Shown piece after piece: positions 2,211-39,932 of a stretch of 58,687 nucleotides of DNA (its first letter is position 1; each line of letters opens with the position of its first letter). The notes below the pieces were generated by a model. The model searched no databases, was not told the DNA's origin, and saw nothing but the letters and a program-made list of their open reading frames with translations. Source of the stretch: a virus; IMG/VR virus record IMGVR_UViG_3300021957_000041, positions 1-58,687 of that record. One strand, given 5' to 3'. Made by a program: the position numbers and the translations under genes.

Positions 2211-3287
2211 TTACGATTGTGAAGAAATCGCATAGTTATTCAGAATTGTCCATGTTTCCATCAACCAGTTGTGATGGTTAGGAAACGCAGCCCATAATTG
2301 GTCTTCTGCAAACTTTTTACTAAACTCAAATTTATTAAGAGTTGTAACAGAAGAATCAACATGATCAAATACTTTTGTTTGCATACTTGCAGGTAATATA
2401 GAATCAGTCAGTTGCATCAAATCATAATTTCGTTTCAGCAAAATTTGATTTTCTTCTTTAAGAAAGTTCTTATACAAAGGCATCTCTTTTTGTTTTTTCT
2501 CTGAGATTTGTAATAAATCATTTATATTTAGTTTTGTGTCATTTGTAAATTCAGGAAATGCAGTTTTTAGTTTTTTCTCACCTACACCTTTAATTCCGTC
2601 TATATTATCACCACGGTCTCCGTCTATTGTTCTATACAATAAAAAATTACTCGGATGGATTCCATATTCATGCAATACTTTCTCAGGAGTATAAACAGTT
2701 CGTTTAGTTGGACTATAAATCGTTACGTCATCATCTACAAGTTGAAGAAAATCTTTATCGGTGCTCATTATAGTACACTTTTTACCAAGTCCACTGAAAT
2801 AAGAACGAGCAAGTAATGCAATAACATCATCTGCTTCGACATTGTCCATGCAAATAGTTGTAACAGGAAGCATATTAAGATATTCAATGAGTTTAACTAT
2901 TTGTTTTTTCATTGAGTTATCTTCTTCTCCTTGATCCATATCCAAACTCAATGCACGATTCACACGAAATCGTACATTCTTTTTCATTTTATAATCAGAA
3001 AAAATCTTACGTCTTCTTGAAGAACCACCCTTGCCATCAAATATGATTATACAACGAGTGGGTTTACGCAAACGAATAGCATGACCTATACTTTTTAGAA
3101 ACCCCGTGTAACCACCTATATGATCTCCATTGTCATTCGTGGTTGGGTACATACTCCAAACACGCATAAATGTGTTCATACCATCAATTAAAAGAGCATC
3201 AGAGTTTATTGTTCTGTTTGCGTCTAACTCAGCCCTTTGCTCTTCTGAAAATTCCTGAAATAAACTAAATATTTTATTATTGCTCAT
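2211..3287 (-). CDS. 5'-3' exonuclease / flap nuclease (FEN family; T4 RNase H-like)
   Basis: Structure-specific nuclease that removes RNA primers and flaps during lagging-strand synthesis. The protein (358 aa from the chosen start) has a PIN-like domain beginning DALLIDGMNTFMRVW. Acidic metal-binding clusters lie in IIFDGKGGSSRRRK, VEADDVIA and STDKDFLQL. A helix-3-turn-helix region DGDRGDNIDGIKGVGEKKL follows, typical of T4 RNase H and the Pol I 5' nuclease. I choose the ATG at 3287 (MSNNKIFS), which overlaps the uvsX stop by 11 nt. An ATG eight codons upstream (3311) is possible but extends the overlap, and neither has a strong ribosome site. The UvsX-exonuclease-helicase order points to a replication/recombination operon. 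Confidence 0.88.
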   Translation of the reverse strand: MSNNKIFSLFQEFSEEQRAELDANRTINSDALLIDGMNTFMRVWSMYPTTNDNGDHIGGYTGFLKSIGHAIRLRKPTRCIIIFDGKGGSSRRRKIFSDYKMKKNVRFRVNRALSLDMDQGEEDNSMKKQIVKLIEYLNMLPVTTICMDNVEADDVIALLARSYFSGLGKKCTIMSTDKDFLQLVDDDVTIYSPTKRTVYTPEKVLHEYGIHPSNFLLYRTIDGDRGDNIDGIKGVGEKKLKTAFPEFTNDTKLNINDLLQISEKKQKEMPLYKNFLKEENQILLKRNYDLMQLTDSILPASMQTKVFDHVDSSVTTLNKFEFSKKFAEDQLWAAFPNHHNWLMETWTILNNYAISSQS

Positions 3288-5746: not shown

Positions 5747-6514
5747 TTAAGTAGATTTTTGAAGATTTTTTTCAATTCTTTTGCGTGAAACTTCGACTGC
5801 TTTTTTGTTGATGTCACATCCTAAATAATTACGATTTAAAGACTTAGCAACATCGAGTGTCGTTCCACTTCCACAATAAAAATCTGCAACTAAATCTCCC
5901 TCGTTACTACTTGCTTTAATGATGCGTTCAAGTATCTTTGGGTGTTTTTCTGAATAATAATCAGTTTGTTTTTTAACTTTTAAACCCGATGGGATGTCAT
6001 CCCAAATATTTGTAGGTATCGTTCCAACTTTTAATTTTTCTTCGGTAATATTAGGACGATCTTGTTTTTTACTGATTACAGATTTATATGGAACCCGAAT
6101 ATCTAAATCATTGAAAACAAAATCATTCGATTTTGTATACACAATTATGTAATCATGTTTTTTTGCGAACTCTTTTTTTCCACGACCACCTATATTAAAT
6201 TTTACTACAATTTGGTTTCTGAAGTTTTCATATCCAAATATATTATCCATCAAAATTCGTATCCAATGAACAATACGCAAGTCCATTTGAAGATATATGG
6301 TTCCTGTTTCTTTTAACACACGATTCATTTCGTGTAAACGAGGAATATAATGATCATCTATATCTTTTTTATTGTTTGGTAAATCTGTATAATCTTTGAA
6401 CTTTTTACCAGTTCCATAAAGAATATCACAATAAACTAAATCTACACTATTTGTATCTAGTAGATTAAGAAGTTTTAAATTATCAAAATGGTAAACTTGG
6501 TTTATGGGTTTCAC
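5747..6514 (-). CDS. Site-specific DNA methyltransferase (beta-class N4/N6 amino type)
   Basis: Probable S-adenosylmethionine-dependent modification of exocyclic amino groups in DNA. The 255-aa protein has the permuted beta-class order. The catalytic motif IV region comes first (LVYCDILYGTGKKFKDYTDL; Asp30-Ile-Leu-Tyr33) and the SAM-binding motif I near the C-terminus (DFYCGSGTT, residues 211-219). The order and the TGKKF segment resemble type III methylases. Motif IV reads DILY instead of the usual DPPY, so activity cannot be taken for granted, although Asp and Tyr are kept. The start is GTG at 6514 with GGAAG 9 nt upstream; an in-frame TAA just before it excludes earlier starts. It follows SpoVR by 3 nt, so it is translated from the same transcript. 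Confidence 0.85.
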   Translation of the reverse strand: MKPINQVYHFDNLKLLNLLDTNSVDLVYCDILYGTGKKFKDYTDLPNNKKDIDDHYIPRLHEMNRVLKETGTIYLQMDLRIVHWIRILMDNIFGYENFRNQIVVKFNIGGRGKKEFAKKHDYIIVYTKSNDFVFNDLDIRVPYKSVISKKQDRPNITEEKLKVGTIPTNIWDDIPSGLKVKKQTDYYSEKHPKILERIIKASSNEGDLVADFYCGSGTTLDVAKSLNRNYLGCDINKKAVEVSRKRIEKNLQKST

Positions 6515-6517
6515 GCA

Positions 6518-8083
6518 TTACAACTTCCCACCTTCAAATCTTTTCATTTCTCCGTTGTTGTAACGATAACGAACTTCAACTTCAACAGTTTCTTTGTTTT
6601 CTCCGTAACCTTCTGTTTCTACATCGTATGTAAGAATGTTGATTGGTTTCTTCATTATTTCATGTAAATATGCCATAGTTCCCGTTGCATATTTGATATC
6701 AAGTGGTCTTCCATCAAAGTCGTGTCTAAGTAAAATCTCAGTATTTTTGTATTTCATGTTCTCCATGTAAATCACAGGACGACCCATATTAACGTGGCGT
6801 TCAACTAACTTTTCTTTTATCTTTTTGTGATCTTTACTAACAACGACATATTTGTTTGTTGATTTATCTAAAGCATATTCAAAATACTCATACTTCTCAC
6901 AAAAATCTCTTGTAAAAAATTCATTTAAAAATGTAACATCATTATAGTTCTCACGAACTTCATATAGTTTTTCACGACCTAGATTTAAGTTTTTATTCCA
7001 ATATCTTTTTTCATCACCATTGTCGCAATTTTCGTATTCTTTACCAAACTTACCTTTATTCCATCGGTCTTCAATATCACGCAACAAAGTATTTCCAAGT
7101 TTGTATGGATTGTTCATGTTATATTTACCACCCAAAACTCCTGCATGGTGTTTTGCATAATCAAAAATACCATCGTCTCCTGCAAAATTACAAGTTGCCA
7201 TAATATATGAATCCCAATAACTTGCCCAACCTTCATTAAGAACTTTTGTCATTCCTTGTGGACGATAATAAATAGATTCATCACGAATCATACTAAGAAT
7301 ATTTTGTTGCCAAGGTTCTAAACGACAATGATTGATAATCATCAACATAATATCTCGTTCAGGTTTCAATGGAAACTTATTTTCTGCTAATTTTTGTCGT
7401 TCTTCACGTTCACGTCTTTGCTTTTCAATATAATGTGCAGGATTAACATACTTCTGCATATACTCTTTAGTGTCTAAACGAGAAACGTGCTCACGGGGTT
7501 GACGATCTTCAAAGTTAAACTTTGTTGCTTTCTTTAAACTACTTTCACGATAACATAATGATGGATCAATTAAATCATCAATAGCAAGAGCTGCATTTAA
7601 AAAGTCTTTTACTTTCTTTCTACCAAATCTATCCATGTACATACGAATTTTATCACTATGATTTGCCATAACATTCATCATGTTACGATTCGTATGCTTG
7701 AACATAATATTGTTTTTAAAAAAATCACTATGTGCAGTTGCGTGTGCAACAACAGTTAAATTATCAACAATAGGATTGTTACGTTGCAGATACATATAAG
7801 TCGGATCAGTATTTACAACCATTTCATAAATCTTACCCATACCTGAATGATACTGATGATGTAACTGCTCAAATTGTTGTCCAAAATTAAAATGAGGATA
7901 ACGAACAGGAAAACCACCATAAGCGGCAATCTCAACTATTTCGTCCGCATCAAATTCTTCAATAACCAACGGATATGGATCAAGTCCATTATCATAACAC
8001 GCCTTTAAACACTCAGGTATAAGAGCAGCCAACTCTGGACATACTCCTTCGTTTAAACTATCTACTTCCCATGCAATTCCCAT
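6518..8083 (-). CDS. SpoVR family protein
   Basis: The 521-aa protein starts MGIAWEVDSLNEGVCPELAA and carries signature stretches of the SpoVR/YcgB family: FPVRYPHFNFGQQFEQLHH, IYEMVVNTDPTYMYL, VVAHATAHSDFFKNN and LNEGWASYWDSYIM. Length matches bacterial members (about 470-520 aa). In Bacillus the family is linked to spore cortex formation. In non-sporulating bacteria it belongs to a starvation/stress system with PrkA and DUF444 proteins; the biochemical activity is unknown to me. The several His residues in HFNFGQQFEQLHHQYH and AHATAHSDFF look like metal-site candidates (inference). It lies 3 nt after the DUF444 gene and immediately before the methyltransferase, so all appear to share one operon. 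Confidence 0.93.
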   Translation of the reverse strand: MGIAWEVDSLNEGVCPELAALIPECLKACYDNGLDPYPLVIEEFDADEIVEIAAYGGFPVRYPHFNFGQQFEQLHHQYHSGMGKIYEMVVNTDPTYMYLQRNNPIVDNLTVVAHATAHSDFFKNNIMFKHTNRNMMNVMANHSDKIRMYMDRFGRKKVKDFLNAALAIDDLIDPSLCYRESSLKKATKFNFEDRQPREHVSRLDTKEYMQKYVNPAHYIEKQRREREERQKLAENKFPLKPERDIMLMIINHCRLEPWQQNILSMIRDESIYYRPQGMTKVLNEGWASYWDSYIMATCNFAGDDGIFDYAKHHAGVLGGKYNMNNPYKLGNTLLRDIEDRWNKGKFGKEYENCDNGDEKRYWNKNLNLGREKLYEVRENYNDVTFLNEFFTRDFCEKYEYFEYALDKSTNKYVVVSKDHKKIKEKLVERHVNMGRPVIYMENMKYKNTEILLRHDFDGRPLDIKYATGTMAYLHEIMKKPINILTYDVETEGYGENKETVEVEVRYRYNNGEMKRFEGGKL

Positions 8084-8086
8084 AAC

Positions 8087-9241
8087 TTAAAAAGGTACTT
8101 CTTCATCGGCAGGTGTTAATAATTTTTGAAGAGTTTTGAACACATCAGATGGAGAATCCATAGATGCAGTTACAATTGTCTTCGGATCAAGTTCTCCACT
8201 TGATAACTTAGTTTGTATGTGAGGTAAAAACGTTGCCCAACTTCTTACTGCCTTGACTTCAGTTATACCAATTAAATTTGCATACTTTTGCATTGTTTTT
8301 AAATAATCTACACACAAATCATTATCAGAACCAAAATTCTCTCCGTCACTTAAATAGAACACATAAATGTTCCATTCATTTAAAGGAAATGCTTTTTCAA
8401 CAATGTCATTTACCAAATGAAAAGCACTACTAATTTGTGTTCCACCACCACTTTTATATTTGTAGAACTTTTCTTGATCTACTTCTTGTGCATGATGATC
8501 GTGAACAATATACTTTACTTGTGTTTCTTGATAAAATCTTTGTACCCAATTATCAAGATACCAACACAACTCACGAATTAATGCTCGTTTTTCTTCGTCC
8601 ATACTTGCAGAAATATCTGATACAAAGAATATAGCCGCATTTGTATCGGGTACTTCAACTGAACTCCAACTTCTGAATTCTTTATCATCTTTAATTGGAT
8701 AAAAGTTAGATAAATCTTCTGGATTGTAATCTTCTGATGAAATCAATCGTTTGAAAGCATTCTTGAGAGTTTTGCGTTTATGAAGCAAACTATTGTTTCC
8801 TACTTTGGCAATGCGATTCCACTTGATTTTTTCTTTGACCATTTCTCCATTTTCTTTAGGAAGCAAATTTGGCAATTGAAGTTCTTCACCGATCATATCA
8901 AAGTAAGCATCCATGCTAATTCCAACATCAATTTCGTGACCGTCTCCGTCTCCGTCTCCACCATCACCAGGTTGTCCACCTTGACCTTGACCCTGTGGTG
9001 GTCCGTCACCAACTTCATCTCCTACATCTGCTTCTCCGTTGCCGACACCACCTCCATCAGAAGGTTGTCCGTAACGAAAACTCGGAAGTTCTACGTGAGG
9101 AACCCGAACTACTACGAAGTCTTTTCCTCTTCGTGTAACTCGTTGACCACCTTTAATGTGTTTTTTGAGTTTTTCGTCAACATTTCCTTTGACGATATCT
9201 CTGTATTCACCGTGGTCTTCTCGTATTCTACGTGATGGCAT
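8087..9241 (-). CDS. DUF444 family protein (YhbH / YeaH type, von Willebrand-like)
   Basis: The 384-aa protein starts MPSRRIREDHGEYRDIVKGN and continues with RRGKDFVVVRVPHVELP, characteristic of DUF444. A Gly/Asp-rich linker (about residues 60-105) precedes the folded part. A MIDAS-like metal motif is visible in FFVSDISASMDEE (Asp-x-Ser-x-Ser), and later IYVFYLSDGENFG supports a von Willebrand A-like fold. In bacteria this protein is encoded between PrkA and SpoVR and is thought to act with the kinase, possibly as an adaptor or substrate; the precise role is not established. The gene follows prkA by 20 nt. There is no clear Shine-Dalgarno sequence before the ATG, so translation may be coupled. 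Confidence 0.92.
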   Translation of the reverse strand: MPSRRIREDHGEYRDIVKGNVDEKLKKHIKGGQRVTRRGKDFVVVRVPHVELPSFRYGQPSDGGGVGNGEADVGDEVGDGPPQGQGQGGQPGDGGDGDGDGHEIDVGISMDAYFDMIGEELQLPNLLPKENGEMVKEKIKWNRIAKVGNNSLLHKRKTLKNAFKRLISSEDYNPEDLSNFYPIKDDKEFRSWSSVEVPDTNAAIFFVSDISASMDEEKRALIRELCWYLDNWVQRFYQETQVKYIVHDHHAQEVDQEKFYKYKSGGGTQISSAFHLVNDIVEKAFPLNEWNIYVFYLSDGENFGSDNDLCVDYLKTMQKYANLIGITEVKAVRSWATFLPHIQTKLSSGELDPKTIVTASMDSPSDVFKTLQKLLTPADEEVPF

Positions 9242-9261
9242 AATGATGTATTCGTTGACTA

Positions 9262-11361
9262 TTAATCTTCGTCTTCGTCTGCATCACCTCTTGCAAAAAT
9301 ACTTCCAACATATGTAAGAACATCTGAAGCACTATCTTCATCGTATCCAAATGATGTAATCAATCGTTGCTTCAACGCATCGATCTTTTCAAGAAGTTCT
9401 TTGTCAACTACAGTTGCGGTATCTTGAGCAAGAGCAGATAACTTGATGCTATCCTTGGTATCTTCAAACAACTTCTTTTCAAGTGCTTTGTATAACTGCT
9501 CATTAGAGTCGTATTTGAACTCTTTGCCTTTAGCGGCAAGTCCACCCATGTAATTCATAATTTCTCTACGGAAATCGTCCTTCATGCCATTGGAAATGCC
9601 AATCTTTTCTTCTATACTACGCATAAGTTGTTCATTGGCAACTTCTTCTTTACCGGTAACTTGGTTAGTAACTTTTTCGTCTTGAATATACGCAACGATG
9701 TTATCTATGTAGTTGGTACAAGTTGCTTTTATTGCTTCCTCACTACTACTAAGTGCTTGTTGTACTTCTCGTTTAACAATTCTGTCATATTCTTTTTCAA
9801 CTGCTTCAAGTCGTTCAAACATATTCTTTTTATTATCTTCACTATTAAACCCACTATAACTTTTAAGTCCTTCACGAATTTGTGCAAACAACATGAATGG
9901 ATTTAAACTTTTAGCACCCATTCTTGGATTTACAATTGCATTAGAAAATTGATTCTGAATGAATCGTGCGGATACTCCACCATATAATCCTTCTTTTGGT
10001 GATTCCTCTTGCATTTCTTTTACGTGTTCGTCCGTGAAACCATGTACACTTTGACCATTGTAAAGTTTTGCTTTTTGAATGATACCCATATCTTGCTTGG
10101 AACTTTCTTCCAAACGACTTACAACTGCGAACAACGCAGCCAAATAAGTTGTATGAGGAGCAATGTGCTTATTTACAGTGTTTTTGTTATAGAAGTGATC
10201 ATAAATCTTCTTTTCTTCGTCAATCTTGAGAAGATAAGGAATATCAATTTTAATTGTTCTGTCACGAAGTGCTTCCATGAATTTGTTGTTGGTCAACTTT
10301 TCAAACTCAGCATTATTGGTGTGACCAAGAATAACTTCATCAATAGGTACTTGATTGAAACGACGTGGTTTAACACGATGTTCTTGGGTTGCACCAAGTA
10401 AATCATACAAGAACTCAGTTTGAAGTTTAAGAATTTCTTGAAACTCAATCAAACCACGATTAGATACGAGGAATTCTCCATCAAAATCGAATGCTCGTGG
10501 ATCACTTTCACTTCCGTACTCTGCCAACTTTCGGTAATTAATATCACCTGTAAGTTCAGTTGCATCTTGTGACTTTTCATCTTTTGGTTGGAATGTACCG
10601 ATACCAATACGATTCTTTTCAGAAAGAGTAACACGGCGAATTACGATATGGTCAAGCACCTTACGATAATCACCACCATGCATTTCCATTAATTGATTAT
10701 AGTAAAATTCATTAACAGGATTTAGTGCTCCGTCTAATTTAATTTTGTAATCGTCATCACTTCTTTTTGAATTTAATTTATTGATGATTTCACTACGAAT
10801 ATCATCAGGAAGAAGTTTTAATGGTTCTTCGTTCATTGGACATGGAACTAAAATTTCTTTTCCTGCTTTGTCAGATACTTTCCAACTGAATGAATATAAA
10901 GCACCTTCTTCAGTTTGAGTATAATGTTCTAGTCCTTTTTTAAGAGCAGTAACGATAGTAGACTTACTACTTCCAACGGGACCATGTAAAAGAATAACAC
11001 GACGTTCAGGACCATAGTGACGACTTGCACTTTTAAGAATGTCCATAAATTCCATTAAATTTTCTTCTAAACCATAAATGGAAATATCACCAAGACCTTC
11101 AAAGAACTTGTATTTAACGTGTTGTCGTTTGCAATATGTAAATTCGGATGTTCCGTGAGACATCACCATATCGTAAAGTCTTTGGTAGGAGTTTCTTGCG
11201 ATTTGCGGAGCTTCTTCCAACATCTCAATATAATCCCAAAATGTACCCGTCCAATTTAAAGACTCATAGGTGCTCACCGCATCATCGTTATCGGACCTAA
11301 TCAAGGATTCGAGGGTGCTTGCTCTTTCCTTATTTTCTTTTTGTCGTTTTTTATTTTCCAT
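9262..11361 (-). CDS. prkA: PrkA family serine protein kinase / AAA+ protein (YeaG type)
   Basis: Large AAA+ protein (699 aa from the chosen start) with Walker A LLHGPVGSSKSTIV near residue 130, which is the PrkA-specific form. The family pattern follows: an early YDMVMSHGTSEF-like segment, the conserved RPRVFDFDGEF-type region (here DPRAFDFDGEFLVSNRGLIEF), GHTNNAEFEKL and GGVSARFIQNQFSNAI. PrkA was described as a serine kinase acting in starvation and stress responses, and a protease activity has been reported for the Bacillus protein. Length is slightly above the usual 630-645 aa. The start at 11361 (MENKKRQ) is preferred over an ATG two codons earlier because AAGG then lies 8 nt upstream. 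First gene of the PrkA-DUF444-SpoVR-methyltransferase run. Confidence 0.93.
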   Translation of the reverse strand: MENKKRQKENKERASTLESLIRSDNDDAVSTYESLNWTGTFWDYIEMLEEAPQIARNSYQRLYDMVMSHGTSEFTYCKRQHVKYKFFEGLGDISIYGLEENLMEFMDILKSASRHYGPERRVILLHGPVGSSKSTIVTALKKGLEHYTQTEEGALYSFSWKVSDKAGKEILVPCPMNEEPLKLLPDDIRSEIINKLNSKRSDDDYKIKLDGALNPVNEFYYNQLMEMHGGDYRKVLDHIVIRRVTLSEKNRIGIGTFQPKDEKSQDATELTGDINYRKLAEYGSESDPRAFDFDGEFLVSNRGLIEFQEILKLQTEFLYDLLGATQEHRVKPRRFNQVPIDEVILGHTNNAEFEKLTNNKFMEALRDRTIKIDIPYLLKIDEEKKIYDHFYNKNTVNKHIAPHTTYLAALFAVVSRLEESSKQDMGIIQKAKLYNGQSVHGFTDEHVKEMQEESPKEGLYGGVSARFIQNQFSNAIVNPRMGAKSLNPFMLFAQIREGLKSYSGFNSEDNKKNMFERLEAVEKEYDRIVKREVQQALSSSEEAIKATCTNYIDNIVAYIQDEKVTNQVTGKEEVANEQLMRSIEEKIGISNGMKDDFRREIMNYMGGLAAKGKEFKYDSNEQLYKALEKKLFEDTKDSIKLSALAQDTATVVDKELLEKIDALKQRLITSFGYDEDSASDVLTYVGSIFARGDADEDED

Positions 11362-11405
11362 AACCATTACCTTATTTTATTTTTAATTAGTAGTCAACTT
11401 ATTTT

Positions 11406-11801
11406 TTAAACTTTTTTAATATTATACAGACGAGTGCTAACTTCTCTGTAAGAATCTCCGTCAACTAGCAGTATTTTGTTTTTGTATAAGTTCCAGTCAA
11501 TAACAAACTTGTTATCAAGTACACCGTTATTCAATTTTCTTATTAATGCGTTCAATGAGTTAATTGTATATAATGTGTTGGAATCTTTTTTTCTATGTAC
11601 ACTTATTGTATTTTTGTAGAAATTGTTAGAATTTAGAGTATCTTGATTTATGTTGTAAGTCAACATTAAACTATTTAAATCATCTATATCTTGTAAAATA
11701 AAAATTTTATCAAAAACTATATCGTAATACTTTTTTACTGCGTTTAATTCTGCATCATACGATTGCATATCGGTGAATGTACAAAGTAGTTTAGTTCTCA
11801 T
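11406..11801 (-). CDS. Unknown 131-aa phage protein
   Basis: Begins MRTKLLCTFTDMQSYDAELN. I do not recognise the family. It reads as a compact alpha/beta protein: a beta strand at the start (KLLCTF), amphipathic helices (AVKKYYDIVFDKIFIL), and a C-terminal basic segment. One cysteine, no signal peptide or membrane segment. It has a good ribosome site (AAAAGG about 9 nt before the ATG) and a close variant of the recurrent promoter box 19 nt upstream (11821-11829), so it is probably expressed on its own from a short leader. It sits between the family A polymerase and prkA. Confidence 0.75.
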   Translation of the reverse strand: MRTKLLCTFTDMQSYDAELNAVKKYYDIVFDKIFILQDIDDLNSLMLTYNINQDTLNSNNFYKNTISVHRKKDSNTLYTINSLNALIRKLNNGVLDNKFVIDWNLYKNKILLVDGDSYREVSTRLYNIKKV

Positions 11802-11847: not shown

Positions 11848-13134
11848 TTAAATTTGCTTCATGTCTCCGTATGTTTTTCCGATATATGTTCTAACAGGAT
11901 ATTCGTTATTTGATGTAATAATTGGTTGTAGTTCTTTAATAATTTCAAATTCACTTTTGTGCATATCAAATAAAAACGCATCGTATGTGTATAATATCAT
12001 GCTCGATTTACGATTTTGCATAAACTTATTTATTTTCAAAATAACTTCGCAATTTTTTTCAGTTTCCGCTGACTGCAATAAATAATTGAATACTTTATAT
12101 GAATTTATTTTATCACCAAAAAACATAGATGCAATTTTTCGTTTATAGTACCATGTTTCAACATATTGATTTTTTTGGTAATAACTCCATACAAAATCTA
12201 CATACTCAGCAATTGCTTTCATAAAAGGAACATTTTGTTTTATATCATCACTTATTCCACCATAAATTAAGTTAAAAGTCACTTTCTTGGAAAACTCATA
12301 TTCTTCTTCGGTTAGTGTATCTTTTCCGTGATAATATTTTCCTAGATATTCATGTAAAGATGTAGAAGGTAAATCATACTTTAAATAATTACCCAATAAA
12401 CGCAGGTGATAACTTTCATAATCTACCATCACCAACAAACCATCTTCTCTGAATCTGCTTGTGAAACAATCACGTTGCCCAGTCTTTTTATTGAGTGCAG
12501 CGAAATTAACATTTCCAAATGCATTACTCGGACGACCTGTCGGAGTCATCATATTATATTGACTATAAACTAAATTATTTTCATCTACTAAATTAGTATC
12601 ACCCAAATTAAAGTTTGAAACAAACAATCCATTTTTTTCTATTCCATGCAATGCCGATGAAAAATCTCGTTCATATTCAAGTAAGTTGGAATCTAATTTT
12701 AAGTTTTCAACAGAACTGCACAATTCTTTGAAATGCTTTAATAATACCATTATAGGAACTGATCTTAAATCTTTCAATCTACTATGATTATATTCGTTGT
12801 TTAATTCAGTTTTATTTGACAGATACGAACACACCAATGCATCGGTTGAATTTTCAAATGTGTTCACATGATATTGAATTTTTTTTCTATCAAATATTAT
12901 TTTATTGCCCAATGTCTTGAATATCATGTTTAAATATTCCGATGGAATGTTCATAGAATCAGGATGATTAAATGAAATTACATAGAATTCCTTTTTAACA
13001 TTAACAAACAACGCAAGTGGTTTATTCTCGTGTGAATGTAAATTCGGATATGTGTAATACAAATTCAAAATACTTGAATTACAATCAAGCAACGAAAGAA
13101 GTTCTTTTGCTTCGTTGGGACTTTCTATAAACAT
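11848..13134 (-). CDS. Divergent family A (Pol I-like) DNA polymerase
   Basis: Likely the phage replicative polymerase, 428 aa, much shorter than bacterial Pol I. Motif A is VDYESYHLRLLGNY (canonical DYSQIELR), with His at the usual steric-gate Glu. Motif B is KKVTFNLIYGG (canonical KxxxFGxxYG), keeping Lys, Phe and Tyr. Motif C is LYTYDAFLFD, keeping the catalytic Asp but not the usual HDE. An O-helix-like region and the GRPSNAFGNVNFAAL template-grip segment precede motif A. The first 150 residues resemble a 3'-5' exonuclease scaffold without its Asp/Glu ligands. A separate proofreading exonuclease may exist outside the window, as reported for the split RM378 polymerase (recalled). Its place next to the baseplate genes is unusual. 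Confidence 0.82.
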   Translation of the reverse strand: MFIESPNEAKELLSLLDCNSSILNLYYTYPNLHSHENKPLALFVNVKKEFYVISFNHPDSMNIPSEYLNMIFKTLGNKIIFDRKKIQYHVNTFENSTDALVCSYLSNKTELNNEYNHSRLKDLRSVPIMVLLKHFKELCSSVENLKLDSNLLEYERDFSSALHGIEKNGLFVSNFNLGDTNLVDENNLVYSQYNMMTPTGRPSNAFGNVNFAALNKKTGQRDCFTSRFREDGLLVMVDYESYHLRLLGNYLKYDLPSTSLHEYLGKYYHGKDTLTEEEYEFSKKVTFNLIYGGISDDIKQNVPFMKAIAEYVDFVWSYYQKNQYVETWYYKRKIASMFFGDKINSYKVFNYLLQSAETEKNCEVILKINKFMQNRKSSMILYTYDAFLFDMHKSEFEIIKELQPIITSNNEYPVRTYIGKTYGDMKQI

Positions 13135-17534: not shown

Positions 17535-20500
17535 TTAAAAATCAGCATATTCTTCTTCGTATTCTTTTCTCCACTGCTCCAACTCATTTGCTTCTCTAAC
17601 AGTTAACCACCACCTTGCAGTCCAAACTTGACGTCTTCCGTCCGATGAAGGATTTATTTTTATAATATGTTTAAATTTTTCTGCTATCTTTTTAACTGGT
17701 TCAGATGTGGGAATTAAATCTCGTGGTACTTTTAGTAACACTTCCATATCATAATTTGCGTTGTCTTCACTCATTGTTCTAATTGAAATATCAGCAGGCT
17801 GCGTACCAACTGGAATAGATTTACTTCGTCCAACCATTGCTTTATATTTAAATCCAGTAACAGGGTCTTTTACAATTGTAGGAACATCAATACTACTATC
17901 AGACGGACAATCTGATAATTTCTCATTATATCCTACTTTGGATTCACCTTTATATGTCTCGGTTGCATTCCATGTTCTTGATTTTTCTGCAATATATGCT
18001 TCTCGTTCATCACCTTCCAACGCATTTCCTTTATTCACAATAAAAGTATTTTCTTTCATATTCCACACATCAACTGCATCTGATTTTCCTTGGAAGTATA
18101 CCTTTTCACACTTCTTTTCACCTTTATCGTTTTCCTTCCAGTCTGACCTATTATACTCTCCATACTCTGAATATATTTTTGCTCCCAATTTTCTACAAGC
18201 AAGATACAATGAAACTTTTCTTTTCCATTTTGTTCCGGCATCAGATCTCTCTGCTGATCTGCGTTCAGATTCAGATAATGAACAATATTCTGCACTTGTT
18301 TTAAATTTTTCATCATTTGGTTTTGGGTAATCTGCACAATCTGGATCTACAACCGGAGTTGGTGTCGTAAATTTACTTCCTTTAACTTCAACCATGTGCT
18401 TACCGGCATCCGAACTTCTTGATACAGAACCATTTTTAATTTCTTGTGCAATTACACTTATTTCATAATAACCATCGTCAACCGATGCTTGAGGTGATGC
18501 TTCTGTTTTTTCGGAAAACTGTACAATTCCATAGTCTTTTAAAGTTTCTTTTGATGCCGATACACCGGTTATATTGCCGTTTGAATCATTTACGGTTTTA
18601 ATTGACCTAAGTGTTGATTTGTATCTATTTGCTCCTTGTATCGCAGACCACTTCCACATTGGACGAGAATTTTCAGTTGGAGAACTTGAGTGCGGTTCTG
18701 GTGTTTTTAATTTTTCATCAGGACTATCAGTTGTTTCACCTCCACCTTTTACATCTTTGGTAGTAGGACCACAAGTTACATCAAAATCATAACCACTTAA
18801 ACTATCTGCATTGAGCATAACAGGAATTCCACTTGTTGCTCCGTCTTTGATTTTAGTGATTGAATCTCCTTGATACATCCACTTCATTTGATTTTGTTCA
18901 TATACTGAAATTAAATACGACCCATCGAATGAAATTGATACTTTTTTAGCATCAGGACATGGATACGTTAAACTTCCTTTATCTTCTTTTGCCATGATGT
19001 ATGCCATTGTATCACCTATCCACAATTTTACATTTCTTTCAATTGCGGATTCCATTAATTGTCCAGATTTTAATCCTATGTCTCGTCCTTCTCCATCTTT
19101 TTCTCCTTCACTTCCGAGTTTATATGGACACTTTGGTGGTTTGGGTGGTACAGAACGTTTGTCAATTTTTACTTCGTGTGTTCCAAATGTTGACCAATCG
19201 AGTCCAGTACCTGATTTGTTTGGTACTCCTGCTTTTACTTTTATTGTATATAATCCCGTCTTTAAAGATTTAGGTGCTTTGAAATATGTTCGTTTGGTTA
19301 CAAAAGTTGCTCCTTCAAAAAATATTTCATATCTTTCAGCAGACGCAACAGCAGGCCATTTCCATGTGGGTTGTTTGTTTGGAGTTGGAGTTTCAGTCTT
19401 TGGTTTAGGTTCAGGAACTATTCCACGAGTTTCTCGTTCTGCACCAGGCACCGATCCTTTACCATCATCATTAAATTCTATTTTCTCAAGAACATGATCT
19501 TTTTTCCAAGGTAAAAAGTATTTTGATTTGTCTGACGATTTGTTGGAGAAATACACACCTTGACCAAGAACATCTTCATCATCCTTTTCCAATATTTCAT
19601 TTACGTCTTCGAGTCTTCGTTCTGCGGTTGCAAGTGATGCTTCAATTTGATTTAAATCATTATTTTTAAATTGAAGTTGATTAACTACAGTGAGTCGTCC
19701 TACATTTGCTCGTTTTCTAAATTCAAAATCTGCTTCTTTTTGTGCTTCTTTAGATGTACCTTTTAATAAAACCAAATAATTTTCTATTTGAATTTGAGTT
19801 GCGTCTAAATTATATTTCTCTGATATAATTGCTTGATACTTCATATCCTGCATTCTATCAATTACCAATTGTTTTTGGTCTCCTTTCCAATCACCCACTA
19901 TAAAATCTTTGTAGTTTGCGACAGGTAAATTTTTATCTCTCATTTGTGCATGAAGAGTTTCTACCTTAACTTTTTTCTGTTTTAAATCCTCTATGTGTTC
20001 GTTTAAAAATCTTGATTCACTTTTTCCTAGTTTTTTTGCTTTTTGTGCATCATTTTGTGTATCAGTTCCGTCTCCCCCCATTCCTTCAATTTCTCTTCGT
20101 TGGCCGAGTTTATATTCAGTTCCATTTAATTTAAACAATTGGTCAAATATATGATCTGCGGCTTTATCTTCCAAATATTTATCGGTTCCTGTACCAGATA
20201 GTTTTCTTTTTGTTTTACTAACCGTAGCAAAAAATCCAAGTTTCAATTCAGCATATTTTTTTCCATCACCTAAATTTAACTGATCAGATACATCTGGATT
20301 TACTTCGTAATTAACATACTCAGGGTTTCCACTTGGAAATACTTTGACCCCCTTGATTAGTTTTTCACGATCTTCTTCATATGGTACATAATAAATTTTA
20401 TCTGTATCTACTGGCGTTCCTTTGTGTTCATCACTTGTTAAATCTTTAAATGACCACAATTTATCGTTATCCCCCCATAAAGGAACCGTTAATGCTCTAC

Positions 20501-22925
20501 CCACAAAGTCTGATAATAATGCTTTAACTGCACTTATATTTTTGTAGTTTGATTCAGTTATAGTATTTGTTCCTTTTGTGTTTAACTTTATTTTAAATCC
20601 AGAAGTTACATCCACATATATTATAGGTTGCCAGTGTCCTGCTATCTCACGTATGTCTTGAACATCATCAGGTGTACAATTTATTTTAAATGATGTCTTG
20701 TGTTCACCCGGTACTGCCTGACCCGCATAACTACTTGGATTTCCGTTGTCGTCAAATTCTATGACAACTGCACCATTTGAACTAGAAACGTGTCTTATTT
20801 TAGATAATGGTGGATTTTCTTTTCCACTTGCATCTTTTAATGTATAAGGTCCTCCCCCAATTTTCCCTTTACCCATTTTCTTTGCTAAATAGTCTCCTAT
20901 ATCTTTTATCCAATAATTTAGATTTCGTTTTTTAAGTTTAATCAAAGTAGATGCTTCTTTTGCTTCAACAGATTCTTTTTGAGATTTTTCATATCCAATC
21001 AAACGACCATCATCATCTTTCTCACCAACTCCTCCGATTGGATAAGGACACTTTGCTGGTTTTTCTATGTCTTCTTCTTCTTCGGGTTCTTCTGCGAAGT
21101 TTTTGTTATATACACATCTAAGTCCGTCTGGAACCTTAGTATCACCGACACTATCAACACACCCATCATCACCCCATTTACAACTTGCGGTTTCTGGATT
21201 TTTTTCCATTAATTTGGCAATTTCTTTACACGCACAATCTTTCCACTCCTCAATTTCACCTTTGATTCGTTCTGATTCTTTTGTTTTTAAATTTCCCGTT
21301 GCTTTGCTACGATAATATGCAGACGGAGGATATGTAGTACAAACAGGATTACGCATACCCTCAAATGGATCAGGAATAATTCCTTTTGGGTCAGCATCTT
21401 TTTCTGCTTCTTCTCGTTTTTGTCGTTCTAATTCTTGACGTTTTTGTACTCCTGGATTTGGATGAATTAAATTATACCTGAATCCTTTATCAGGATCACC
21501 GTATCTATCGTTTTCCAAATTCTCTTTATTCGGTTTATCTTCACTTATATAATGACCAAAATGACGATTGTTTGTTTTGGGTAATCGTTTTTCCAAAAAG
21601 TTAAACGAAATACTAATTTGTGCCATATTAGGAAACTGACCAACTAGAATTTCATCTTCCTTTTTAGTTGTAAAAGTTCCATTTAAATATTCATAATTAT
21701 TTTTTCTATTTTCATCGTCTGATGTAAGTTCCCATGATGCCTCGGGGGGAATGTTCATAGAAACAGAAGTTAACACAACAGGTTGTTCATCGTACATATC
21801 ACCCACTTTTAATTTTAAAAACGGAGGAATTATAAAGTTAGTGTTAGACGGAGATGCAAGTAGTATATCATTATTCGTTGCACCGGTTGTATATCCAGCA
21901 GGTTTTGTTAATCCAACTAAATAGTTTAATCTTTGCCACATTGGGTGTAACTCTTTTAAACTAAAACAAACTGTTGTAAAATCAATACTAACCGTTCTTG
22001 CGAATCCTGTGTATATTTGCACATTATCAGCACGACCTAAATATCTAATTTGTTGCCACTCCGCATCCGATTGATCACTTATACTGTTTATGTAAGATCT
22101 AAATGGAAGATATTTTTTGTTTACAATATCATGTAAGATAAATGGAATGAAATCCCAATCTCTATATAGTTGCTGATCACCTATTAGTTTTTCTCCATCA
22201 TCTTGTTGTGCTACTTTATCAGGTAAAGTATACAACTTATTATATTCATCGTGCTTTACAGTTGGACCAGATTTATAGTTTGGAATCTTTTTCTTTGGCA
22301 AAAACTTGGGATTGTCTTTGTATCTATCCTCGTATCTTTTTGATGCGTTTGCTTCGTACTTTGACTGAGACTCATGTCCTTTTGTTAAAAATGGTTTTAC
22401 TTGATCCGGTTTATCCAAAGCATACGCATCTATAACCTCTTTTCGTTTGGTATCGTTTATCATACCCACCGAATTCATTCCATTTGCTCGCATAGATGCT
22501 TCTAAATTATTTTTATATTCATCGTGCTGACTATGCGTTTGAGTTGCATATGTATTTTTTAAAGGTTGAATCGTTTTATCTGATTTATCTTTTTTATTTG
22601 AACTCGGTGATAAATTTGGATAACGCAACAATCTTTGTATTTGCTCTGAATCTTCTTTTTCGTATCTAGTTATATCTCGTCCATACCAATTCAATATCAT
22701 TTGATCTTTTTCGGTATCTAGATAATGTGACCACCTTGGTTTGTCTTCAACTCTTGTAGGTGTCCAATAAATTGTTCCAACATCACGATATATTTGCTCG
22801 GTATCTTTTCCTAAATACAAACGATCAGATGCAGTTCTAAATGGAGTATATTTAAAACCAGCACCACCTTTGAAATCTCCGATACCCCGTTTGGAGTTCC
22901 TAGAACTATTGTGTACATTTTCCAT
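17535..22925 (-). CDS. Giant baseplate / tail-tube initiator protein with repeated beta modules, 1796 aa
   Basis: Residues about 245-470 (DWDFIPFILHDIVNKKYLPF, RADNVQIYTGFARTVSIDF, LHPMWQRLNYLVGL, QFPNMAQISISFNFLEKRLP) match the tail-tube-initiator fold of contractile tails, the role of T4 gp48/gp54. What follows is unlike T4: two Cys-containing modules opening CPYPIGGVGEKDDDGR (about 625) and CPYKLGSEGEKDGEGR (about 1265), and two fibronectin-III-like modules opening PTWKWPAVASAERYEI (about 1185) and PMWKWSAIQGANRYKS (about 1420). A charged, probably helical stretch covers residues 930-1130. The N-terminal 240 residues are polar and low in structure. It lies between the tape measure (5-nt gap) and gp53, as expected for a baseplate gene. 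The added modules may decorate the baseplate exterior. Confidence 0.72.
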   Translation of the reverse strand: MENVHNSSRNSKRGIGDFKGGAGFKYTPFRTASDRLYLGKDTEQIYRDVGTIYWTPTRVEDKPRWSHYLDTEKDQMILNWYGRDITRYEKEDSEQIQRLLRYPNLSPSSNKKDKSDKTIQPLKNTYATQTHSQHDEYKNNLEASMRANGMNSVGMINDTKRKEVIDAYALDKPDQVKPFLTKGHESQSKYEANASKRYEDRYKDNPKFLPKKKIPNYKSGPTVKHDEYNKLYTLPDKVAQQDDGEKLIGDQQLYRDWDFIPFILHDIVNKKYLPFRSYINSISDQSDAEWQQIRYLGRADNVQIYTGFARTVSIDFTTVCFSLKELHPMWQRLNYLVGLTKPAGYTTGATNNDILLASPSNTNFIIPPFLKLKVGDMYDEQPVVLTSVSMNIPPEASWELTSDDENRKNNYEYLNGTFTTKKEDEILVGQFPNMAQISISFNFLEKRLPKTNNRHFGHYISEDKPNKENLENDRYGDPDKGFRYNLIHPNPGVQKRQELERQKREEAEKDADPKGIIPDPFEGMRNPVCTTYPPSAYYRSKATGNLKTKESERIKGEIEEWKDCACKEIAKLMEKNPETASCKWGDDGCVDSVGDTKVPDGLRCVYNKNFAEEPEEEEDIEKPAKCPYPIGGVGEKDDDGRLIGYEKSQKESVEAKEASTLIKLKKRNLNYWIKDIGDYLAKKMGKGKIGGGPYTLKDASGKENPPLSKIRHVSSSNGAVVIEFDDNGNPSSYAGQAVPGEHKTSFKINCTPDDVQDIREIAGHWQPIIYVDVTSGFKIKLNTKGTNTITESNYKNISAVKALLSDFVGRALTVPLWGDNDKLWSFKDLTSDEHKGTPVDTDKIYYVPYEEDREKLIKGVKVFPSGNPEYVNYEVNPDVSDQLNLGDGKKYAELKLGFFATVSKTKRKLSGTGTDKYLEDKAADHIFDQLFKLNGTEYKLGQRREIEGMGGDGTDTQNDAQKAKKLGKSESRFLNEHIEDLKQKKVKVETLHAQMRDKNLPVANYKDFIVGDWKGDQKQLVIDRMQDMKYQAIISEKYNLDATQIQIENYLVLLKGTSKEAQKEADFEFRKRANVGRLTVVNQLQFKNNDLNQIEASLATAERRLEDVNEILEKDDEDVLGQGVYFSNKSSDKSKYFLPWKKDHVLEKIEFNDDGKGSVPGAERETRGIVPEPKPKTETPTPNKQPTWKWPAVASAERYEIFFEGATFVTKRTYFKAPKSLKTGLYTIKVKAGVPNKSGTGLDWSTFGTHEVKIDKRSVPPKPPKCPYKLGSEGEKDGEGRDIGLKSGQLMESAIERNVKLWIGDTMAYIMAKEDKGSLTYPCPDAKKVSISFDGSYLISVYEQNQMKWMYQGDSITKIKDGATSGIPVMLNADSLSGYDFDVTCGPTTKDVKGGGETTDSPDEKLKTPEPHSSSPTENSRPMWKWSAIQGANRYKSTLRSIKTVNDSNGNITGVSASKETLKDYGIVQFSEKTEASPQASVDDGYYEISVIAQEIKNGSVSRSSDAGKHMVEVKGSKFTTPTPVVDPDCADYPKPNDEKFKTSAEYCSLSESERRSAERSDAGTKWKRKVSLYLACRKLGAKIYSEYGEYNRSDWKENDKGEKKCEKVYFQGKSDAVDVWNMKENTFIVNKGNALEGDEREAYIAEKSRTWNATETYKGESKVGYNEKLSDCPSDSSIDVPTIVKDPVTGFKYKAMVGRSKSIPVGTQPADISIRTMSEDNANYDMEVLLKVPRDLIPTSEPVKKIAEKFKHIIKINPSSDGRRQVWTARWWLTVREANELEQWRKEYEEEYADF

Positions 22926-22930
22926 ATAAC

Positions 22931-25900
22931 TTATTGATCATTTACAGATGCAACTGCTCTTGATACCTTTCTTCCGTCCATATTAACTGCAATACCACCT
23001 TTACGCATAAGTAAAATTAGTTCATCAAGTTTCTTGACGACTTGTGTGTTATTTTCTTTTTTATCTGCTTCTGCGGTTACTCCATTGTTTGTATCTACTA
23101 TTTTTGCAATTTCTTCAACAAAAATATTGTGTCCTTTTACGGATATGGTATCCAACCCACTAAGTTCAATGTTTGTACCAAATGATTCACCCGAATCTGG
23201 TTTTGTTCCCACCAACCCTTCGTCTGGTAAAATATTTTTTGCAAAATCTTCAGTTTTTGCAAACACGGTATTGGTTGTTTGAGATTCAATTTGTTGAATT
23301 TGATCATTGATTGGTTCAACCGTGTCAATTGTAAATTGAGGTTGCTCTGTGGTTGGTAACTGCAACGGTTGCATCAATGGAATTGTTGAAGTAGAATCAA
23401 CTATATCATAACTAGGTAATATTTGTGGGTCAATCACAGGAACTGATGGAATTGTTGGTTCTACATCAACAGTTTGAATTTTGTTTTGAACGAGTCTACC
23501 GTCATCCACAAGAAATTGTTTCCGTGCGGCTATTGCTTCATTAAGAAATTCACTATCTGTTGTTGCTCCTGTTTTTATTGCATGATCAGTTATCTTAATT
23601 CTTTCGGATACCGAACTCGTTAGTTTATCCGATAAGTCTTTTATAGTTACATCATAGTATTCACTAACATCACTTGTACCATCATCGTGTGTAGTAATTT
23701 TTGTACCCGTATCGGTATTCATACCCACAAGTTGTCCTTCGGCATAAAGTTTTCCTTGTATTTTTTTGTTGAGCAAACCGGACATGATTTGATCCATCCA
23801 ACTAGATGCTTGAACTACTTGTTCCACCTGCATAGATGATGTAAAATCATCTTTAATTAGACCTTTCTCACTATGTGATTTCGTTTCAAGATTGTCACGT
23901 GCTGACATGATTCCCAAGTCACCTAAGAAATTTTTTGTATTTGTCTCATTTACACCCATTGTTCTCATATGGGCTTCCATAGAGTGATCTTCGTCCACAT
24001 TGAAGTATTTGTTTTTAGCATAATCCGAGAGTTTATCTTTTATGCTCTCTGGCATATATTTGTTGTACATATTACCCAAAAACTCAAATACAGGCTGTAC
24101 CGTATCCGTCATTTTTTTCTCATCTTTGAGTTTTTTATTTTCAAGAATACTGATTTCAGGTTGTTCATCTGGAACAGGTAAAGTTGGTTGTATTGGAATG
24201 GTAGAGGTTGAATCTACAATATCTGGTGTAGGTATAACTTCTTGAGGTGCACCAAAGAGTTTTGCTTCTTTTTCATTTAACATTTTTATTATCAACTCAT
24301 TGGTCTGATGTGATACATCACCAAGTTCAAGTTTCTTACCAAGTTTTGCTTCCAAATCATCTCTTGTTTTTATATTTAAGTCGGTATAACTTTCACCCAA
24401 TACATCTGCAATTTTGAGTTGGTCTGGTGGTTGTACAACACCCCCTTGACGAGATACTTCATGTAACATTTTTCTAATATCACCAATTTTATGAAACTCA
24501 AATTCATCGTTTGAAAATTTCATACTTTGTGCAGATTGCTCTTGGGATTTCTTTTCTTCTGCTTTCTCAATTTCTATTTCACTCATCATTGTTTGCATAT
24601 AAGCATTTTCTGCTTTGAATTTATTTACATTCAACCCACTACCACCTGGTTTTTTGCCATCGTTTATTAATTGCTTATTTAACTCAATGTAAGATTTCAA
24701 TGTTTCCATATAACCATCAAGTGATTTAGAACCGGTTTTATCCATTGATTCAATTAAATTTGTTTTAAATGTTTCATAATCACCAAGACCAAAATTTGTT
24801 TCTTTTGCTTGTGTTTTTGTTTCAACTGGATTTGAAAATACATCAGCAAGTGATTTAGTTCCGGTTTCGGTTGTTTCTTGAGTCGGTGTATCTGATGGTT
24901 TCTGTGCAAATACGTCTGCTAATGATGGACTTTCTGTCACCATAAATTTAGGTGGAAGTGTTCCTTCGGTTACATTTCCTTCTAAGAATGGATCACTTGG
25001 TGGTAATGCTCGTGGTGGTATTTTTATAGGTGTTTGTACTCCACCTAAATTAATATTTTGCAAACCACCTAATTTATTTACATCAAGTTTATCAACTACA
25101 TCGCACAACATATATAACTCACTTGTAATTGCACTTAATGCTTCCACCGCAGGATCCTGTATTCCAGCAAATGCATTTAAAGCATCAACGACACCTGATG
25201 TGAATGTTTGTAATTTACTTACATTTTCAGTATTGATACTATTTGAAATTTCTGTCAATTGTTTTAATTCACCCACTATACTCACACCACTTACACTTGC
25301 AAGTTTGCCCATACTTTCAACAAACTTTGGAAATGATGAACCAGCATCTTTGAAAAATTCTTTTATTTTATCTGCTTCACCATCGTTTACATAGTCCGCA
25401 AATTCCTCTATTCCATTTCCTAAATCTTTTAGAATGGTATCCATATCCTTTGGAAGTTTTATTTGCGAAAATGCAGTTAAAAATGGAAGCATACTTGCTT
25501 GGATATTTGCAAGGTGTGGTAATGCGGTTAAATCAATAGGAGCAAGTTCATCAAAGAATTGATATATTCCATCTCCTATATTATTTAAAATAGAACTTAA
25601 ATCATCTGTTGGTATTTGTGTTGCAGATAGTGCACTTATGAATGGAAGCATTCCTGCTTGTATATCAACCAAAGCAGGAAGTGCAGTCAAATCAATAGGA
25701 GCAAGTTCATCGAAGAATTGGTATATTCCGTCTCCAGTATTATTTAGTATGCTACTAATATCTTCGGAAATTGCACCCAATGGAAGTGTAGATATAGACG
25801 TAATAAACGGTTGTAGTCCTACCTGTATTTGAGGTAGTAGTTTAACAGTTTGTGACTCAACATCCTCAAGTCCACTAAAGAAATAATCAAGTCCGTCACC

Positions 25901-37926: not shown

Positions 37927-38394
37927 TTATTGAGTCCTCGGTAAAATATTCAATTTACTTTTACGTGTCATATGTGCATTACAAAGTAAACTATAATTCT
38001 TTTCTGGTTGACCACCTAAAAATTGATTTTCAACAATATTGGAAATTTCAAAGAAAGCATTTTCCCACATCACAATGTCACCAATTTCAGGATACAAATC
38101 TTTATTTTCACATAACTTTTGATGAAATCTAAATATAGTACCTTTCTTCACATCTGGTCCAAATCCTTCATAACTTGTTGTTTGAGGATCAGATTCTACT
38201 AAGCATGATGTTTCTATACCAGGATAATAAACTTTATCCATTGCTTCTCCATAGATAGTAGACTTGGTCTGACTTGGATTTATTTTATATACAACGATTA
38301 TTTGTTCTATAATATTCAGCATCAATTCACCGTTTAAACTATTCATAAAACGGACATCTCTTCGTGAATAGTATCTACCCTTTGACCTTTCCAT
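37927..38394 (-). CDS. 14: Neck protein, gp14-like
   Basis: Head completion/neck component between gp13 and gp15. The 155-aa protein begins MERSKGRYYSRRDVRFMNSL. Its second half, DIVMWENAFFEISNIVENQF and KNYSLLCNAHMTRKSKLNIL, resembles the gp14 C-terminal region of T4-like phages as I recall it (a VENQ...NYS...HxTR pattern). T4 gp14 is 256 aa, so this is a short version. Its ATG overlaps the gp13 stop by one base and its stop touches the gp15 start, so the three neck genes are coupled. The assignment leans on gene order as well as sequence. Confidence 0.65.
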   Translation of the reverse strand: MERSKGRYYSRRDVRFMNSLNGELMLNIIEQIIVVYKINPSQTKSTIYGEAMDKVYYPGIETSCLVESDPQTTSYEGFGPDVKKGTIFRFHQKLCENKDLYPEIGDIVMWENAFFEISNIVENQFLGGQPEKNYSLLCNAHMTRKSKLNILPRTQ

Positions 38395-39839: not shown

Positions 39840-39842
39840 GTC

Positions 39843-39853
39843 TATAAATATAC
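39843..39853 (-). promoter_or_regulatory. Late-type promoter box abutting gp13
   Basis: Coding strand GTATATTTATA, exact nonamer at plus 39844-39852, 4 nt before the ATG; the closest spacing in the window. Confidence 0.55.
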
Positions 39854-39881
39854 ACTAATTATAGTAATCGTTATAAAATAA

Positions 39882-39907
39882 AAGAGGGGTTCAAAAGAAC
39901 CCCTCTT
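39882..39907. terminator. Rho-independent terminator after the major capsid gene
   Basis: 11-bp perfect stem AAGAGGGGTTC / GAACCCCTCTT (39882-39892 with 39897-39907), AAAA loop, followed on the coding strand by TTTATTTTAT. The strongest hairpin in the window, suited to an abundant capsid mRNA. Confidence 0.92.
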
Positions 39908-39932
39908 AAATTTTGTGTTATCCCTAACAGAA

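Follow-up and report, generated by a model that had tools for sequence, protein, structure and literature searches.

Described relatives of the module

The serial arrangement of genes for PrkA, a DUF444 protein and SpoVR is known from bacteria as the PrkA-YhbH-SpoVR or YeaG-YeaH-YcgB module, and here we describe a version of it in the IMG/VR virus record IMGVR_UViG_3300021957_000041, a 58,687-base stretch of DNA that was analysed at its full length and is called the window below. All three families as well as the gene order are common to the bacterial and the phage modules. Unlike the bacterial module, the phage one forms a lineage of its own, has an Asn-Gln pair in place of the lysine of the proposed kinase region and lies in a replication block beside a gene for an N6/N4 DNA methyltransferase. 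In Escherichia coli, the role of a "metabolic brake" has been ascribed to YeaG and YeaH (PubMed Central (PMC) number PMC10954441). YcgB is found together with these two, and a link of yeaH and ycgB to resistance against antimicrobial peptides has been reported, partly through unpublished data (PMC2375023).

Phage copies of the genes have also been recorded. The Thermus phages phiYS40, TMA, MN1, phiLo and Lalka8 have PrkA, a von Willebrand A (vWA) protein and SpoVR, partly annotated in GenBank, but the order is vWA-SpoVR-PrkA (phiYS40, MN1 and Lalka8), and PrkA and SpoVR are 29-33% and 21-24% identical, respectively, to those of the window. A huge phage (LR756511) and the IMG/VR loci L039-L081 are closer, i.e. 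the genes follow the same order as in the window and PrkA is 47-50% identical. However, these form a separate clade (clade II; 18 out of 19 rows), keep Asp-Lys at the lysine position (39 out of 43 loci) and have insertions and extra genes. In the Ralstonia jumbo phage RsoM2USA the SpoVR and PrkA genes (ORF28 and ORF30) lie near each other as in the window, but they were treated as single genes with best matches to Vibrio and Alcanivorax proteins (PMC8504454). This phage was not among the phage records matching the PrkA or SpoVR of the window. Finally, in viromes of the oxygen minimum zone of the eastern tropical North Pacific, spoVR was reported to be more abundant than any other viral sporulation gene, and zeta toxin and sporulation genes to have similar depth patterns (Jurgensen et al. 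2021, PMC8940887). Both spoVR and zeta toxin genes are present in those viruses, as they are in the window, which has a zeta-toxin-like kinase domain at 57385-58428 (PF06414, 1.7e-11). Unlike here, spoVR was read in that study as a single gene pointing to sporulation, and its main text, as far as available, contains neither prkA nor DUF444.

A mechanistic parallel is offered by NorQ-NorD and CbbQ, in which an AAA+ ring protein is paired with a vWA protein. CbbQ is paired with CbbO. These belong to different sequence families; PrkA has an additional helical C-terminal domain, and by this analogy the client in the present case would be SpoVR.

We found no paper in the open-licence part of PMC in which the trio is treated as a module of phages, the original phiYS40 paper not having been sought by name, and the available parts of PMC3533761, PMC4605624, PMC10294663, PMC11360552 and PMC9301287 contain nothing on such a module in phages. 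The sequence-only reading of the window had called the module surprising in a T4-like virus and had left open whether it was described before. The complete module in a T4-like phage is real, but phage copies as such were already known from the Thermus phages, the ocean viromes and the Ralstonia jumbo phage. To judge from our literature searches, what is new are the fixed T4-like lineage, the loss of the lysine, the inteins and the SpoVR fold.

The module in a T4-like phage clade

In the contigs sampled, the module is fixed in one clade of phages. This is evident from a scan that started from the neighbouring recombinase UvsX and did not select for the module (best 80 loci of at least 600 stretches; several close contigs are shared with the PrkA-first scan described below). 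UvsX was at least 82% identical in 21 loci, out of which 12 have the full module, three have the part covered by the contig and six end before the site. In other words, module genes are present in 15 out of 15 close relatives in which the contig reaches the site. The remaining 59 loci belong to a sister clade with 60-63% identical UvsX; none of them has a module match, and 34 hold both flanking genes. The site is also empty in Flavobacterium phage immuto, where a homologue of the 131-residue open reading frame (ORF) upstream of PrkA (orf131; 1415-1789) and the gene of the single-stranded DNA-binding protein (SSB; 2426-3109) are separated by one unrelated ORF. We conclude that the module was inserted between orf131 and the SSB gene.

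The other two scans gave a consistent picture. The PrkA-first scan of viral contigs (best 80 of 160 stretches kept) found PrkA in 80, DUF444 in 76 and SpoVR in 75 loci, and the loci with missing genes (L004, L012, L037, L038 and L080) sit at contig ends; 32 of the 80 loci, with orf131 and the polymerase-like gene as neighbours, represent the clade of the window. In the SpoVR-first scan (251 relatives, from which the 78 best loci were kept, with contigs overlapping those of the PrkA-first scan) the order PrkA-DUF444-SpoVR is kept in 72 out of 78 loci and in 64 out of the 65 that have at least 6 kb upstream, so that the three genes behave as a unit. One locus (L381) has DUF444 and SpoVR with PrkA absent from the 8.6 kb before DUF444. 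Out of 14 control genomes, four match SpoVR (E. coli, Bacillus subtilis, Thermus and Haloferax), and these are also the four that match the C-terminal domain of PrkA; the single Bacteroides genome in this set matched neither.

The genes of the module are also under strong purifying selection. The ratio of nonsynonymous to synonymous changes (dN/dS) was calculated by the Nei-Gojobori method for 22 of the 32 clade loci against the window, with 14 to 22 loci per gene. The medians for the module are 0.046 (SpoVR), 0.046 (DUF444) and 0.057 (PrkA), and those for the replication genes are 0.054 (UvsX), 0.057 (SSB), 0.067 (exonuclease) and 0.083 (helicase). Higher medians were found for the methyltransferase (0.106), orf131 (0.148), the polymerase-like gene (0.227), a 76-residue ORF (0.413) and orf141 (0.491). 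The low values of the module, near those of UvsX and SSB, indicate that it behaves as core replication genes do. A separate observation is a break in conservation at 11367-11406: the median identities within the clade are 33-56% in the orf131-polA-orf141 block and 94% in the adjoining PrkA, as if alleles of the block had been swapped.

The three proteins are clear members of their families. SpoVR matches PF04293 at 1e-106 (357.5 bits, cut-off 27), the DUF444 protein matches PF04285 at 8.9e-66 (223.1 bits, above the cut-off), and PrkA matches AAA_PrkA (PF08298, 1.9e-84, 284.2 bits) as well as the PrkA C-terminal family (PF06798, 3.2e-69, 233.9 bits; cut-offs 25). The motifs GPVGSSKS, DISAS, HATAH and NEGWA were all verified at the DNA level. 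The bacterial order and the gaps of 20 nt (PrkA/DUF444) and 3 nt (DUF444/SpoVR) given by the sequence-only reading agree with the ORF coordinates, and a second in-frame ATG is found at 11361, six bases inside the PrkA ORF start at 11367.

Table 1. Features of the module in the window.
Feature	Positions	Strand	Evidence
PrkA-like AAA+ protein (701 aa), AAA_PrkA and PrkA C-terminal domains	9262-11367	minus	Pfam; PDB 9xip; AlphaFold2 model
PrkA Walker A GPVGSSKS; K135 corresponds to K116 of E. coli YeaG	10960-10983	minus	alignment
PrkA Asn472-Gln473, no lysine at the position of YeaG K426 or its neighbour; Asp-Lys in bacteria	9949-9954	minus	alignment
DUF444 (YeaH/YhbH-like) protein (384 aa), von Willebrand A metal ion-dependent adhesion site (MIDAS)	8087-9241	minus	Pfam; alignment
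DUF444 MIDAS DISAS (D209, S211, S213)	8603-8617	minus	alignment
DUF444 MIDAS T268	8438-8440	minus	alignment
DUF444 MIDAS D299	8345-8347	minus	alignment
SpoVR (521 aa), predicted zincin-like fold	6518-8083	minus	Pfam; AlphaFold2; structure comparison
SpoVR HATAH, H114 and H118, no Glu after the first His	7730-7744	minus	alignment
SpoVR NEGWA, invariant E284; A287/S288 is an intein insertion point elsewhere	7223-7237	minus	alignment

The phage replication region proposed earlier is confirmed by the neighbours. Downstream of SpoVR there follow the N6/N4 DNA methyltransferase (5747-6514), a small ORF, a gp32-like SSB, UvsX, an exonuclease and a DnaB-like helicase. On the other side, upstream of PrkA, orf131 and a short protein resembling family A polymerases are followed further off by structural genes, among them those for the sheath, a gp23-like major head protein, the portal, the terminase and the head maturation protease. 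By capsid and terminase, respectively, the nearest named proteins are those of immuto (54.7% and 52.2% identity), of Microcystis phage Mel-JY01 (52.1% and 52.8%) and of a 484-kb uncultured phage (55.3% and 43.1%). Phage records matched PrkA in 16, SpoVR in 12 and DUF444 in 17 cases, and none of these three phages is among them.

Some neighbouring features deserve a brief mention. The methyltransferase after SpoVR accompanies 29 of the 80 PrkA-first loci and has no convincing match in the approximately 145 kb compared of the 160-kb immuto genome; it may have arrived together with the module. The polymerase A-like protein (11848-13134) has only 428 residues and scores just below the Pfam cut-off, and immuto has two separate genes annotated as DNA polymerase family A (1-1326 and 37898-40231), which together suggest that the replicative polymerase is split in these phages. 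Between the portal and terminase genes a small protein (49810-50415) has a lipoprotein-like start, i.e. a hydrophobic stretch ending in Cys, and no Pfam match. Two very long proteins of the structural region (22931-30076 and 17535-22925; 2381 and 1796 residues) have no Pfam family. Promoters and terminators were predicted in numbers no higher than in shuffled sequences, and no tRNAs were found in the window.

Lineages of the module and its inteins

Bacterial relatives were collected as the best 80 of at least 580 stretches, chosen by PrkA similarity to the window, and 40 of the 80 were used in the tree. The closest bacterial PrkA proteins are 52-55% identical and come mostly from Myxococcota, Planctomycetota and Chloroflexota. 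The order PrkA-DUF444-SpoVR was found in 56 out of the 80 bacterial loci (57 out of all 85 examined when the phage locus L246 is counted in).

The clade of the window together with copies that are 74-76% identical is called clade I (15 rows in the PrkA tree). In the careful, unrooted PrkA tree clade I, clade II and the bacteria with L072 are each split off at 100/100, and the SpoVR and DUF444 trees have the same three-way split. A quick PrkA tree rooted with an outgroup gave a three-way fork without a sister pair, and the DUF444 tree carries the warning that the long branches of clades I and II meet. L072 belongs to clade II by identity and its record has a terminase match, but it groups with the bacteria on a long branch; it may represent a separate capture. 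In the PrkA tree the Thermus phages stand apart as yet another lineage. The comparison with bacterial and phage homologues thus places the genes of the window in a lineage of viruses that is distinct from the bacteria sampled. A recent acquisition from a host was considered and rejected, given that no close bacterial donor was seen; we note that the true donor may be unsampled, because the bacterial set consists of the best 80 by similarity to the window.

The 74-76% identical copies of clade I occur in phages without matches to the other replication-region genes of the window, which implies that the module has moved between phage backgrounds. As to the viral nature of the contigs, 15 out of 33 records tested have the major head protein (phrog_138) and 14 have the terminase (phrog_2): 10 and 9 out of 11 in clade I, and 5 and 4 out of 21 in clade II. 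Either match is present in 7 out of the 21 clade II records. Many records are fragments, so that a missing match means little, but the viral nature of most clade II contigs rests on IMG/VR. In a six-frame search the capsid match of L036 (G010) contained two in-frame stops and the terminase match of L023 (G005) contained four.

In clade II additional ORFs can lie between the genes of the module. Nine such ORFs were inspected, with homing endonucleases as the expectation, which none of them turned out to be: two methyltransferases, three glycosyltransferase-9-like proteins (one below the cut-off), one DUF6445 protein and three without a family.

Insertions of a different kind are seen within the genes. 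In the PrkA-first set 11 out of 75 viral loci have large in-frame insertions in SpoVR, some of the 11 looking like copies of one virus. They are located after MVIN (N91/T92) or inside NEGWA/S (A287/S288), and both sites are occupied in L063 and L066, where SpoVR extends to 1375 codons. Four of the 11 interrupted proteins were scanned with Pfam and all have LAGLIDADG and intein-splicing domains, with the splicing domain of L077 below the cut-off; both insertions of L063 are inteins. Inteins generally favour invariant sites of important proteins. In bacteria, 5 out of 60 SpoVR proteins are interrupted at the NEGWA site (L182, L183, L184, L206 and L236); of the two scanned, L206 is above the splicing cut-off and L183 just below it. 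The fact that bacterial and viral proteins share the same site is a hint of intein exchange between phages and bacteria. Two out of 64 PrkA proteins of the SpoVR-first set (L373 and L398) are also interrupted, both by inteins according to Pfam.

A proposed role for the module

We propose, with somewhat less than even confidence, that an AAA+/vWA machine acts on SpoVR in order to set the physiology of the host, and that the operon is kept as core viral equipment. A bacterial-type PrkA-DUF444-SpoVR operon would have entered the ancestor of a marine T4-like clade, between orf131 and the SSB gene of the replication block, and would have been retained ever since. PrkA would be an AAA+ motor with little or no kinase activity and DUF444 its vWA/MIDAS adaptor, and the two would spend ATP to remodel or activate SpoVR, by analogy with NorQ-NorD or CbbQ-CbbO. 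SpoVR itself would be a zincin-like effector, judging by its model probably metal-binding and not classically proteolytic. Co-expressed with the replication genes, the machine may set the state of the infected cell, comparable to the metabolic brake of E. coli, and the host possibly has no such operon of its own. Host stress signalling may plausibly be rewired by the module, as the sequence-only reading suggested. A stronger version, in which the core replication programme includes a dormancy machine without the kinase lysine, and the AAA+/vWA device switches a glutamate-less zincin SpoVR so that a host without the operon is held quiescent, strikes us as unlikely.

One alternative is that the phage PrkA phosphorylates host targets and tunes the stress regulon directly, with DUF444 and SpoVR as accessory proteins. 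E. coli YeaG needs K116, R232 and K426, the last in the proposed kinase domain, for its role in nitrogen starvation, and yeaG and yeaH are functionally linked (PMC4664914). K135 and R279 of the window PrkA match K116 and R232 (R279 is lost in 4 out of 5 clade II rows aligned). However, the lysine of the K426 region is replaced: Asn-Gln is found in 36 out of 36 readable rows of clade I (37 rows, i.e. the window and L002-L037), as against Asp-Lys in 79 and Glu-Lys in one of the 80 bacterial loci, a comparison that depends on the alignment, where the bacterial lysine sits one column on from YeaG K426. All key motifs had been regarded as intact in the sequence-only reading, which holds for the Walker A and MIDAS motifs but not for this lysine. 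Moreover, the C-terminal half of PrkA (about 430-700) is modelled almost wholly as helices, with no sheet of a kinase N-lobe (AlphaFold2 model of the whole protein; predicted local distance difference test (pLDDT) 77.7, with low-confidence stretches at 263-300 and 326-340). By sequence PrkA matches a solved structure of the PrkA type, PDB 9xip, named "Serine protein kinase", at E=1e-210. As regards protein turnover, also named in the sequence-only reading, a 2026 study cites an earlier claim of protease activity in B. subtilis, but its own B. anthracis PrkA formed oligomers that depend on ATP and had negligible activity both as a kinase and as a protease (PMC13001217). Direct kinase signalling is thus improbable in our view.

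Turning back to the proposed AAA+/vWA machine, the AAA+ gene adjoins a gene with a vWA MIDAS, as in MoxR AAA+/vWA pairs, and among the structural matches of the PrkA model are CbbQ, NorQ and the vWA complex NorQ-NorD, with Z about 11. The MoxR family is not among the Pfam matches of PrkA at E up to 0.001, which are AAA_PrkA and PrkA only. The Walker A motif of PrkA is conserved. In the DUF444 protein the MIDAS (D-x-S-x-S...T...D) is complete, and D209, S211, S213, T268 and D299 are invariant in 20 out of 20 aligned proteins.

In SpoVR, H64, H114, H118 and E284 are invariant in 43 aligned rows. The glutamate of the HExxH motif is missing, i.e. the first His is followed by Ala or Val in 148 out of 155 SpoVR proteins (redundant contigs included), and in the other 7 extracted proteins the His pattern was not found. 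In a VIA-align comparison of the AlphaFold2 model (pLDDT 81.2, predicted template modelling score 0.78) 3o0y, which we take to be a DUF885 protein, came first (Z 11.3), followed by aminopeptidases, M32 carboxypeptidases and angiotensin-converting enzyme (Z 8.0-9.3); counting 3o0y as one, all of the top seven rows are metallopeptidases. The model thus points to a probably metal-binding, zincin-like fold that would not be a standard protease. The Foldseek list is headed by chains of anthrax lethal factor (probability 0.16 or less), and the single significant match in BFVD is a 617-residue viral protein.

SpoVR might instead be an RNA-binding or RNA-processing effector, loaded by the AAA+/vWA pair, that would act on transcripts of the host or the phage while replication proceeds. 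In sporulating B. subtilis, SpoVR is crosslinked to RNA in vivo (PMC12456014). One of the structural matches is the metallo-endoribonuclease YbeY (Z 7.0), and the module is located in the replication block. Nevertheless, metallopeptidases score higher than YbeY, and we give RNA control little credence. A role in competition between phages, or in defence and counter-defence, would have the module shield the infected cell, or the phage itself, from host immunity or from rival phages. This would be compatible with its movement between phage backgrounds, but the module is fixed in the replication block and is as conserved as UvsX, and counter-defence genes typically evolve fast, which makes such a role very improbable. 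Bacterial contamination or chimeric assembly, a concern raised beforehand, finds support in the bacterial families of the proteins but has a negligible chance and was ruled out, as identical junctions recur across many contigs of relatives, relatives with empty sites exist and PrkA is only 52-55% identical to the nearest bacterial proteins found.

Several points weigh against the proposed action on SpoVR and the status of the operon as core equipment. Both the role of the module in infection and the contact among the three proteins are predictions, and the brake phenotype of E. coli comes from a homologue, YeaG, that is 26.5% identical to the window PrkA. RuvBL, RFC, Lon, ClpC1 and p97 match the PrkA model equally well (Z 10-12); with so many AAA+ families alike, the model singles out no vWA partner of the MoxR type, and Foldseek against the PDB found no significant match for it. 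The same search found none for the SpoVR model. Its top seven VIA-align rows (Z 8.0-11.3; root-mean-square deviation 4.0-4.7 over 177-192 residues) are moderate, helical matches, and a Z under about 13 can reflect a common arrangement; kinship with DUF885 was rejected, the profile comparison giving a probability of 0.5% with an alignment only at NEGWA/EGWA. The inteins depend on the set, with insertions in 0 out of 67 SpoVR proteins of the SpoVR-first set, probably because interrupted genes rank lower there, and in 0 out of 80 PrkA proteins of the PrkA-first set. One clade locus (L013) has broken SpoVR and DUF444 frames, where we suspect the sequence quality because the helicase and other genes are fragmentary too. 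Finally, a Bacteroidota host is a guess from capsid and terminase proteins of 52-55% identity, for which Mel-JY01 scores about equally.

What the window contains is thus a known bacterial module in a phage version that is real, complete, under selection and, within the contigs sampled, fixed. PrkA-YeaH-SpoVR is a widespread stress module of bacteria without an agreed mechanism. The fact that a viral lineage keeps the three genes as strictly as its recombinase, without the lysine on which the kinase idea depends, speaks for AAA+/vWA work on SpoVR, as opposed to phosphorylation, as the activity that is conserved. In the Thermus phages, which have a cultured host, the role of the module in infection is directly testable, and a viral spoVR should not be read as a sign of sporulation.

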